Source of the DNA: a bacterium HR19
Lineage (GTDB): Bacteria; Calescibacteriota; Calescibacteriia; Calescibacteriales; Calescibacteriaceae
Length of the DNA: 64,000 nucleotides
Assembly: GCA_002898315.1 (NCBI GenBank)
Contig: BEHV01000009.1
Span: 20,697-84,696, forward strand
Direction: 5' to 3'
Made by a program: the position numbers and the translations under genes
Part shown: piece after piece, positions 31,700 to 64,000 of the stretch
Position numbering within the stretch: position 1 is the first letter of the stretch
Layout of the letters: each line of letters begins with the position of its first letter
The notes under the pieces: model-generated
The model's database searches: none
The model's input: only the letters and a program-made list of their open reading frames with translations
What the model was told of the DNA's origin: nothing

Positions 31700-33255
<1,556 letters not shown>

Positions 33256-33297
33256 CTTTCTCCTTTTTCAAAAACCTTCACCCTCAAAGATACAAAA

Positions 33298-33371
33298 GGG
33301 CCCATAGCTCAGTCGGCAAGAGCGTACCCCTGATAAGGGTAAGGTCTCCGGTTCGAGTCCGGATGGGCCCA
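33298..33371 (+). tRNA. tRNA-Ile (GAT)
   Basis: A cloverleaf forms with acceptor GGGCCCA/TGGGCCC and anticodon loop CTGATAA (anticodon GAT). The T-loop is GGTTCGAGTCC. It lies in the 16S-23S spacer, the usual place. The 3' CCA is not fully encoded (A-CC-G follows). Confidence 0.95.
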
Positions 33372-33382
33372 CCGAGATTTTT

Positions 33383-33454
33383 GGGGACGTAGCTCAGCGG
33401 GAGAGCGCCCGGTTTGCACCCGGGAGGGCACGGGTTCAAATCCCGTCGTCTCCA
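33383..33454 (+). tRNA. tRNA-Ala (TGC)
   Basis: The cloverleaf has acceptor GGGGACG/CGTCTCC, anticodon loop TTTGCAC (anticodon TGC) and T-loop GGGTTCAAATCCC. It follows tRNA-Ile by 11 nt in the rRNA spacer. CCA is not encoded. Confidence 0.95.
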
Positions 33455-33488
33455 CACCTCTTTTCTGACCGGGGAGAAATTTTGAAAT

Positions 33489-33511
33489 TTGGGAGATAGA
33501 GGTTTTCATGT
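33489..33511 (+). other. 23S processing stem, 5' arm
   Basis: A 23-nt arm is perfectly complementary to 36410-36432 just beyond the 23S 3' end, forming the long stalk that RNase III cuts. It fixes the mature 23S ends to within a few bases. Confidence 0.85.
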
Positions 33512-36409
<2,898 letters not shown>

Positions 36410-61346: not shown

Positions 61347-62450
61347 ATGAAGATTGAAGTAAAGAGAAAAGATTTTCTGGAAACACTCGGTCAAATTCAA
61401 CATGTGACGGAAAGGAGAGCGCATCAGCCCATACTGTCGCACGTTCTCATAAAAGCAGAGGGAGAAGATATAACTTTTTTCGCAACAGACCTTGAAGTGT
61501 TTGTGAAGGCAAAAAGTAAATGTATAAGTTATGGAAATTTTGAAATCGCGCTCCCAGCAAAAGAACTCTATGAACTCATAAGAGAAATTGAATCAGAAAA
61601 AATAAGCATAGAAATCCTAGACGGCAAAACAGAGATAAAATCAAAAGAAGGTAAATATCGCTTGAACTCTATTTCTCCGTCTCAATATCCTCTACCACCT
61701 GAAAAAGAATGGGTGAATATAACAACTCTACCTGCTCAAACCCTGATCACCCTCATTGAAAAATCTTCTTTTGCTGCATCGCAAGACGAATCAAGATATG
61801 TTCTGACAGGAGTTCTCACAGAGTTCCTCTCAAATTCAATTATATTTGTTGCATCAGATGGACATCGCCTTGCGTATTTTGAAGTTCCACATGAAGTGGA
61901 AAGAGAAGGGAAGTTTGTAATCCCCAAGAACGCGATCTTGGACATAAAAAAGATTCTTGTCGGAAGGCAAAATATCTCCGTAAAGTTCTCCGAGGGGACC
62001 TTATTTCTCTCATCAGAAAAAGGAGATATATCAATCTGGATAAAGGTAATAGACGAGGAGTATCCGGCGTGGAGAGAGGTTATTCCAAGCGATAAAGATA
62101 TGATTTGCCAGTGTGTTGTGAAGAGAGAGGAGCTGAAAAAGACACTCAAACGACTTTCTATTTTTGCCGGCTCAAAGTTTCCTTTTGTAAGCGTAGAGGT
62201 AAGAGATGGGAAAGCCATCTGGAGGAGCGAGTCAGATGAACTTGGTTTTTCGGAGGAGGAGATAGATGCTGATGTAAGCGGGAAAGTTCCCTTCCGCATA
62301 GCATTATCTATTCGGTATTTGCAGGACGCACTTTCCTCAATTGATTCCTCTCTTGTTTCTATGAAGATATTTGGGGAGATGAGTCCGCTTTTTATTGAGC
62401 CAGTCGGGGGAACGGGAGCTAAAAACCTCATAATGCCTATAAAACTATAA
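61347..62450 (+). CDS. dnaN: DNA polymerase III beta subunit (sliding clamp)
   Basis: The 367-residue protein has the three clamp domains: MKIEVKRKDFLETLGQIQHV at the start, the middle EKSSFAASQDESRYVLTGVL with VASDGHRLAYFE, and the late YLQDAL and PLFIEPVGG. The closing NLIMPIKL is the classic LMPx-(R/K)-L end. The dimer forms a ring that holds DNA polymerase on DNA. Usual origin neighbours (dnaA, recF, gyrB) are not within the window, but parS sites begin 20 nt downstream. Confidence 0.96.
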   Translation: MKIEVKRKDFLETLGQIQHVTERRAHQPILSHVLIKAEGEDITFFATDLEVFVKAKSKCISYGNFEIALPAKELYELIREIESEKISIEILDGKTEIKSKEGKYRLNSISPSQYPLPPEKEWVNITTLPAQTLITLIEKSSFAASQDESRYVLTGVLTEFLSNSIIFVASDGHRLAYFEVPHEVEREGKFVIPKNAILDIKKILVGRQNISVKFSEGTLFLSSEKGDISIWIKVIDEEYPAWREVIPSDKDMICQCVVKREELKKTLKRLSIFAGSKFPFVSVEVRDGKAIWRSESDELGFSEEEIDADVSGKVPFRIALSIRYLQDALSSIDSSLVSMKIFGEMSPLFIEPVGGTGAKNLIMPIKL

Positions 62451-62469: not shown

Positions 62470-62485
62470 AGTTTCACGTGAAACA
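62470..62485. promoter_or_regulatory. parS centromere site 1
   Basis: AGTTTCACGTGAAACA matches the bacterial parS consensus TGTTTCACGTGAAACA at 15 of 16 bases, including the full palindromic core. It lies between the dnaN and bioA 3' ends. ParB would load here for chromosome segregation. Confidence 0.9.
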
Positions 62486-62509
62486 AATTCCACCAGAAGA
62501 TTTTAACTG

Positions 62510-63916
62510 TTATTTTCTCCCCGATGTTTCACGTGAAACTTTTTTACGAACCCTCATCTGAAAACCCCTGATTGACTCCTCAAGAACATCGCACAGAAAA
62601 TCTATCTCTCTTATCTCAATTGAAAGGGGAAGGTTCAAAATGAGAACATCTCCTATGGGACGGACAAAAACACCCGCTCTCCACATACGAAGCGCAACTT
62701 GCCAACCAGCAAGAACATCAGACCGAAAAGGTTTCTTCCCCCTCTCCACAAATTCTATACCCCACATAAACCCCTTACCTCTCACATCACCTACAATATC
62801 AAACCCAAGAAACTTTTTCAACCTTGACTCAAGATATGATATTTTCTCACCCACCTTTTCCAGAACCTTGTCATTTCTGAATATCTTTATGTTTTCAAGT
62901 GCAAGAGCGCACAAGATTGGATTGCCCGTAAATGTGTGCCCGTGAAAAAAATGTTTCCCCTCCCACTGCTCTCCCTCAAAAACAGAGTAAATTTCATCTT
63001 TGCAAAGCGTAGCCGCAAGCGGAAGATATCCACCAGAAAGTCCCTTACCAAGACACACAATATCTGGCAGATTGCCTTTTCTGTCAAGTTCCCACTCAAA
63101 GCCGAACATCTTCCCGGTCTTGCCAAACCCCGTAGCGACCTCATCTACCACAAGTAAAATCCCCCTCTTTTTCGTCTCATCTCTCAAAAATCTCATGTAG
63201 CCCGGCGGAAAAGGGATTATTCCTCCAGCTCCCTGAACCCCACCCTCTATAAATACCGCAGATAGCCCCCTTTCTCTTTTTATAACTTTCTCTGTTATCT
63301 CAAAACACTCAAAAGAGCACTTTCTCTCCCCCTTCTCCTTTGCTCTGTTGTAGGGACACCTGAAACAGTATATAGAAGCAAGGGGAACCACTCTGAACAT
63401 GATGTCTTTATATTCTCTCGTAAAAGGATTCTCACCCGCAAGAGACATAGCCCCAAGAGTATCACCGTGATAGGAGTTCTGAAGCGAGGCAAACTTCACC
63501 TTCCTCCTCTTCATCTTCCGTCTTGCAAAAGAGAAAGATACTTTCAGAGCGACTTCTACCGCTTCAGCGCCATCCTCACTGAAAAAAACACGAGGAAGCC
63601 CAACAAGCTTTGAAAGCTCTCTTACGAGAAGAATTGACTGAACATTTGCAAGTCCAAGAGTTGTTGCGTGCTGAATCTTATCAGCGGTTCCTTTTATTGA
63701 CTCCACAAGCTCCTTCTTTGAATGACCGTGGATTATACACCATATAGAAGATACAGCGTCAAGATATCTTCTGCCTCTTATATCAACAAGATAGTTTCCC
63801 TCTGCTGATACTATTATTGGTGGTTTTATTTTTCTGTAAAAGCACATTTGAGTATAGGGATGCCAAAAATGCTTTTCATCCCATCTTCTCAGAGTTTTTT
63901 CGGTCCACTTTTCCAT
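62510..63916 (-). CDS. bioA: Adenosylmethionine-8-amino-7-oxononanoate aminotransferase
   Basis: BioA makes 7,8-diaminopelargonate in biotin synthesis using SAM as amino donor. The 468-residue class III aminotransferase begins with HFWHPYTQM, has SSIWCIIHGH and the PLP Asp in ILLVVDEVATGFGKTG. The Schiff-base Lys is in VCLGKGLSGGYLPLAA, then HGHTFTGNPILCALAL. An inserted segment CFRCPYNRAKEKGERKCSFEC has four Cys and could bind zinc or a cluster. One parS site is embedded in its last codons (encoding VSRET). It overlaps the upstream bioF-like gene by 41 bp. Confidence 0.93.
   Translation of the reverse strand: MEKWTEKTLRRWDEKHFWHPYTQMCFYRKIKPPIIVSAEGNYLVDIRGRRYLDAVSSIWCIIHGHSKKELVESIKGTADKIQHATTLGLANVQSILLVRELSKLVGLPRVFFSEDGAEAVEVALKVSFSFARRKMKRRKVKFASLQNSYHGDTLGAMSLAGENPFTREYKDIMFRVVPLASIYCFRCPYNRAKEKGERKCSFECFEITEKVIKRERGLSAVFIEGGVQGAGGIIPFPPGYMRFLRDETKKRGILLVVDEVATGFGKTGKMFGFEWELDRKGNLPDIVCLGKGLSGGYLPLAATLCKDEIYSVFEGEQWEGKHFFHGHTFTGNPILCALALENIKIFRNDKVLEKVGEKISYLESRLKKFLGFDIVGDVRGKGFMWGIEFVERGKKPFRSDVLAGWQVALRMWRAGVFVRPIGDVLILNLPLSIEIREIDFLCDVLEESIRGFQMRVRKKVSRETSGRK
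62525..62540. promoter_or_regulatory. parS centromere site 2 (inside bioA)
   Basis: TGTTTCACGTGAAACT matches the parS consensus at 15 of 16 bases and lies in the 3' coding end of bioA, 55 bp from site 1. Confidence 0.9.
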
Positions 63917-64000
63917 AGCTGAAATCTCCCCGTTTCACGTGAAACATAGTATCAGCAAGAGCTTCAACAAAAAGAGAGATATCTTCTCTGCTATGCTCAG
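63876..64000 (-). CDS. C-terminal end of a bioF-like PLP enzyme, partial
   Basis: A minus-strand frame enters from the right edge and reads EHSREDISLFVEALADTMF before ending at TGA 63876. The pattern matches the last helix of class II aminotransferase-fold enzymes such as 8-amino-7-oxononanoate synthase (BioF). The adjacent bioA supports that name. The last 41 bp overlap the start of bioA in another frame, so the genes are translationally coupled. Only about 41 codons are visible, so the call is tentative. Confidence 0.5.
   Translation of the reverse strand, partial: EHSREDISLFVEALADTMFHVKRGDFSYGKVDRKNSEKMG
63931..63946. promoter_or_regulatory. parS centromere site 3 (inside the bioF-like gene)
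   Basis: CGTTTCACGTGAAACA matches parS at 15 of 16 bases with an intact 14-bp core. It encodes FHVK in the bioF-like frame, just upstream of the bioA start. Confidence 0.9.

Follow-up and report, generated by a model that had tools for sequence, protein, structure and literature searches.

A Predicted Origin-Proximal parS Cluster at dnaN and the Biotin Genes of Calescibacteriota

Introduction

The chromosomal parS sites of Bacillus subtilis, Caulobacter and Hyphomonas follow the consensus sequences TGTTNCACGTGAAACA and TGTTTCACGTGAAACA (PMC7022226, table 1), with position 4 of parS being degenerate, e.g., TGTTNCACGTGAAACA in B. subtilis (PMC7022226). In Pseudomonas aeruginosa, nine of the ten parS sites are predicted to lie within coding sequences (PMC4368675). 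The residues R173 and G201 are absolutely conserved in ParB and are replaced by Q and R, respectively, in Noc (PMC7383237).

Here, we describe parS-like palindromes near one end of a 64-kb window (i.e., the whole stretch of DNA that was analysed) from HR19, a hot-spring bacterium of Candidatus Calescibacteriota. The locus resembles those of B. subtilis, Caulobacter and Hyphomonas in having the same 14-bp core in multiple copies near the origin, in a genome that also encodes a cognate ParB and a ParA; unlike in these systems, parA and parB are unlinked in HR19, the outer bases of the sites are relaxed, and SMC-ScpA was not found. Overall, there is strong support for reading the locus as an ordinary parS cluster near the origin. 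Such clusters are well known, and this one is unusual only in the way it is embedded in the biotin genes and in the partner genes that were searched for without success. To our knowledge, no parS cluster has previously been described from the phylum Calescibacteriota, and its identification pins down where the origin and centromere lie in an uncultured, deep-branching phylum.

Genomes and Gene Calls

The HR19 genome (G000) is a draft of 1.88 Mb in 22 contigs and is 82% complete. Together with four relatives it makes up the set of five genomes compared here: Candidatus Calescibacterium nevadense (G001; contig C22, AWOA01000022.1), which belongs to the same genus as HR19, a sister genome (G002), G003 (contig C7, CALHPK010000007.1), and Candidatus Calescibacterium sp. 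SKYB43 (G004; contig C21, JANXBU010000014.1). Gene calls were based on Pfam and NCBIfam matches, and GC skew was computed on selected stretches of the genomes.

parS Sites in the Window and on a Second Contig

Exact copies of the 14-bp core GTTTCACGTGAAAC are present at 62471–62484, 62526–62539, and 63932–63945, as the original prediction had it, and no other match was found in the window even with up to two mismatches. In shuffled windows, with up to two mismatches likewise allowed, the mean was 0.15 matches and none of 100 reached three. These three cores, and a fourth on contig C12, match the 14–16 bp palindrome tGTTNCACGTGNAACa of chromosomal ParABS centromeres.

Site 1 (62471–62484, strandless like the others) falls in the intergenic space where dnaN and bioA converge. 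The former encodes the DNA polymerase III beta clamp (61347–62450, plus strand; TIGR00663, 248 bits, over the cut-off), and the latter adenosylmethionine-8-amino-7-oxononanoate transaminase (62510–63916, minus strand; Aminotran_3, and TIGR00508 with 402.7 bits, slightly below the cut-off of 405). Site 2 (62526–62539) is written in frame into the last codons of bioA, where GTT TCA CGT GAA ACA encodes VSRET, and site 3 (63932–63945) falls in the C-terminal tail of bioF, where ATG TTT CAC GTG AAA encodes MFHVK. The contig end cuts bioF so that its 3′ end (63876–64000, minus strand) lies in the window, overlapping the start of bioA; this fragment is 87.5% identical over 40 amino acids to the full BioF of G002, for which the top NCBIfam match is TIGR00858 bioF (387 bits, below the cut-off of 426). 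At the level of the 16-mer, AGTTTCACGTGAAACA is present at site 1, recurs in the opposite orientation at site 2, and is also found at the fourth site on C12, while site 3 alone differs (C...A). It had been proposed that each site carries a different outer mismatch; site 3 is indeed distinct, but the proposal is only partly right because site 2 repeats the 16-mer of site 1 in inverted form.

Across the whole 1.88-Mb draft there are four exact cores and no one-mismatch copies, compared with a chance expectation from base composition of about 0.0075 exact cores per genome. The fourth core (C12:55556–55569) lies in the 18 bp separating truA from the gene of a CitMHS-type transporter; dnaA is 3 kb away and the end of contig C12 1.1 kb away. 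The end of the window is also the end of its contig, C9. All exact copies are thus either in the window cluster or near dnaA, with no even scatter around the genome.

Elsewhere in the window, positions 32001–36000 reach 60% G+C in a genome of 37% G+C and contain tRNA-Ile and tRNA-Ala; this stretch is probably a thermophile rRNA operon.

Position of the Origin

In the sister genome G002, all four sites are present on one contig, and the first three are spaced as in G000 (55 and 1406 bp), with a spacing of 5695 bp for the last site in G002. The order there is dnaN, parS, parS, bioA, parS, bioF (which contains a further parS), one gene lacking any Pfam match and one that is START/polyketide-cyclase-like, the transporter gene, parS, truA, a diacylglycerol-kinase-like gene, DnaA boxes, and dnaA, which is 9–10 kb from dnaN. 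From this synteny and the spacings, the origin with its DnaA-box cluster would therefore lie about 8 kb to the right of the window edge. Contigs C9 and C12 would meet at their tails, and the spacings put the gap between them at about 4.5 kb. As the assembly is fragmented, the evidence for this join is the synteny with G002 and G001.

All five genomes have a cluster of DnaA-box-like sequences at the dnaA 3′ end, with four to six of them within 450 bp. In G000, GC skew is negative on C9 toward the right end of the contig and weakly positive where the reversed C12 starts; by itself this is suggestive without being decisive, and it was the longer contigs of the relatives that settled the origin position. 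In G003, where a 117-kb contig spans the region, a clear cumulative GC-skew minimum is located within about 3 kb of dnaA; the minimum lies within about 4 kb of dnaA in G004, and the G001 minimum is shallow and lies several kb away from dnaA, near the parS cluster. As judged from G002 and the other relatives, the distance from the sites to dnaA and its DnaA-box cluster is 2–10 kb, with the skew minimum near. The suggestion that the origin lies close to the right edge of the window is therefore borne out by the fourth site near dnaA, the synteny with G002, the DnaA boxes, and the skew minima of G003 and G004, which fall at dnaA or a few kb past it.

ParB and ParA

A single chromosomal-type ParB is encoded in G000 (C2:143680–144528; PF17762, 120 bits; ParB_N; parB_part, 192.7 bits against a cut-off of 58.45), and its nearest solved structures in the PDB are Spo0J and ParB. 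The sequences of its CTP motifs, GERRLRA and ENIQREDL, are intact, and R173 and G201 (Caulobacter numbering) are found in the ParBs of all five genomes of the family. The protein is thus predicted to be a cognate ParB, having the residues for both CTP binding and parS recognition. A Soj-like ParA, matching AAA_31 with 205.8 bits and scoring below the NCBIfam ParA equivalog cut-off, is encoded at C5:39320–39841. A ParAB system encoded elsewhere had been anticipated, and, in line with this, both genes are on contigs other than those carrying the sites. In all five genomes parA and parB are on separate contigs, and none has the parA-parB operon near the origin that is usual, although not defining; parB on C2 is flanked by unrelated genes, and in G001 about 4 kb separates parA from the parS cluster. 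That parB and parA are adjacent neither to each other nor to the sites, unlike in the usual operon, is evidence against the main reading.

We nevertheless consider it nearly certain, on the sequence evidence, that the three palindromes belong to a chromosomal ParABS system as its parS sites and form the left side of a centromere near the origin, which the fourth site on C12 and probably a fifth in the unsequenced gap would complete. By analogy with known systems, ParB dimers would bind and load at parS, form closed CTP clamps, and slide onto the adjacent DNA, and ParA would move the ParB-covered origin region toward the daughter cells, thereby segregating it.

The ParB of G000 scores 220 bits on TIGR04285 (nucleoid_noc), and the sites might instead serve a Noc-type ParB relative in nucleoid occlusion rather than segregation. 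However, this score is under the cut-off of 315, the proteins have R173 and G201 and not the Q173 and R201 of Noc in five of five cases, the sites are of the parS type and not the Noc site TATTTCCCGGGAAATA (PMC7383237), and a Noc-type scatter across the chromosome is absent; we regard a Noc function as very improbable. We give slightly less credence still to the palindromes being operators of a biotin-gene repressor, even though two of them fall where bioA and bioF end and the bioA start codon follows 16 bp downstream of site 3, since site 1 lies between convergent gene ends and site 4 at the transporter/truA junction, neither of which is a bio promoter, and some of the relatives' sites are deep within bioF, again not at a bio promoter. 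In addition, the sequence is that of the parS consensus, and the genome encodes a ParB with parS-specific residues. A chance 14-mer in AT-rich DNA can practically be dismissed, given the four copies found against 0.0075 expected, all of them clustered and conserved.

Conservation of the Cores and Drift of the Outer Bases

G000 and G002 share all 56 bases of the four cores. By comparison, 29 of 45 positions (64%) are identical in the dnaN-bioA intergenic flank of site 1, whose core is identical at 14 of 14, and 620 of 837 (74%) at the third codon positions of dnaN and bioA, which supports the view that selection kept the sites. Sites are also retained at the same gene junctions in G001, G003, and G004, and in relatives from other genera they occur, as the accepted GTTYCACGTGRAAC variants, inside bioF and at three junctions (dnaN-bioA, bioA-bioF, and transporter-truA). 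The positions of parS thus persist while the genes diverge to 50–60% identity.

The outer bases, by contrast with the constant core, change between G000 and G002 at three of the four sites (A/G at site 1, C/T at site 3, and A/T at site 4). It had been suggested that the outer mismatches may tune ParB affinity, and we rejected this because the outer bases differ between the sister genomes at the same site.

Replication and Segregation Partners

ScpA (PF02616) was identified in none of the five genomes, and full-length SMC in none outside the small G001 contigs C82 and C131, where it is probably foreign, the G001 genome being 5% contaminated. A candidate SMC of 1068 amino acids in G000 (C7:112865) was rejected as SbcC-like. 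It may be that ParABS works without SMC-ScpAB in Calescibacteriota.

The dnaA gene of G000 (C12:51661–52749; L014:6661–7749) encodes a DnaA of about 360 amino acids that starts at the AAA+ domain, with TIGR00362 matched over positions 103–437 only. In G001–G004 the stop-to-stop frames of dnaA are at most 371 amino acids long, and DnaA domain I (PF11638, DnaA_N) was found in none of the five genomes. In Escherichia coli, truncated DnaA lacking domains I–II is not viable (PMC5448010); therefore, helicase loading in Calescibacteriota may be unusual. The absences of SMC-ScpA and of DnaA domain I are apparent ones; if closed genomes bear them out, the phylum would be a natural test of ParABS segregation and helicase loading without the usual partners.

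Sites Within bioA and bioF

Both coding sites of the window are located in the variable C-terminal tails of their proteins: site 2 lies past the aminotransferase domain of BioA (the Aminotran_3 match stops at residue 447 of 468), and site 3 past the conserved domain of BioF (the TIGR00858 match ends at 413 of 439 in the full-length protein of G002). The coding cost is small because both sites fall beyond the conserved domains. The in-frame bioA site does use the rare arginine codon CGT, which accounts for 7% of arginine codons in G000; this codon is forced by the palindrome and makes up 3–7% of arginine codons in the family's genomes. The idea that the sites were kept at the cost of codon choice is thus weakly supported, the rare CGT speaking for it and the position in variable tails against it.

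Further sites are found within bioF in the relatives, including an additional GTTCCACGTGAAAC site in G002. An in-frame site reading VSRGT near codon 50 is exact in three relatives (G002, G003, and G004) and degenerate in the fourth, G001, and another, reading VPRGT, lies within the conserved motif P-x-V-P-x-G-T-x-R-L-R in G001, G003, and G004 and is absent in G002. When 84,980 genomes were scanned for parS in the frame of this BioF motif (VPRGT), 39 loci were recovered, 26 of which are not BioF; the 13 BioF genes comprise three from Calescibacteriota and ten from elsewhere, including Myxococcota and Moraxellaceae, among others. Four of the cases, namely Nannocystis and three Myxococcales/Deltaproteobacteria MAGs (loci L088, L094, L100, and L113), have extra parS within about 1–2 kb, and in Nannocystis, where bioF adjoins an mnmE-like gene, about 2 kb contain four parS. 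The Moraxellaceae BioF cases have no further parS in the surrounding 8 kb. As there is no chance baseline, the recurrence of parS in the BioF motif in other phyla is a lead only. We tentatively suggest, with somewhat less than even confidence, that Calescibacteriota have a standard parS centromere operating without SMC-ScpAB condensin and with a DnaA lacking the helicase-recruiting domain I, that some of its sites have been kept in bioF codons for as long as the phylum has existed, one of them in the conserved VPxGT motif, and that the same coincidence arose separately in Myxococcota.

The parS sites of P. aeruginosa (PMC4368675) are alike in lying within reading frames near oriC. Unlike those, the Calescibacteriota sites are at gene ends and, in the relatives, inside a conserved BioF motif, and they are retained phylum-wide.

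Dense parS arrays were also observed in Myxococcota (loci L083 and L107), with five parS in 1.7 kb in Nannocystis sp. RBIL2 and six sites about 37 bp apart in a Myxococcaceae MAG.
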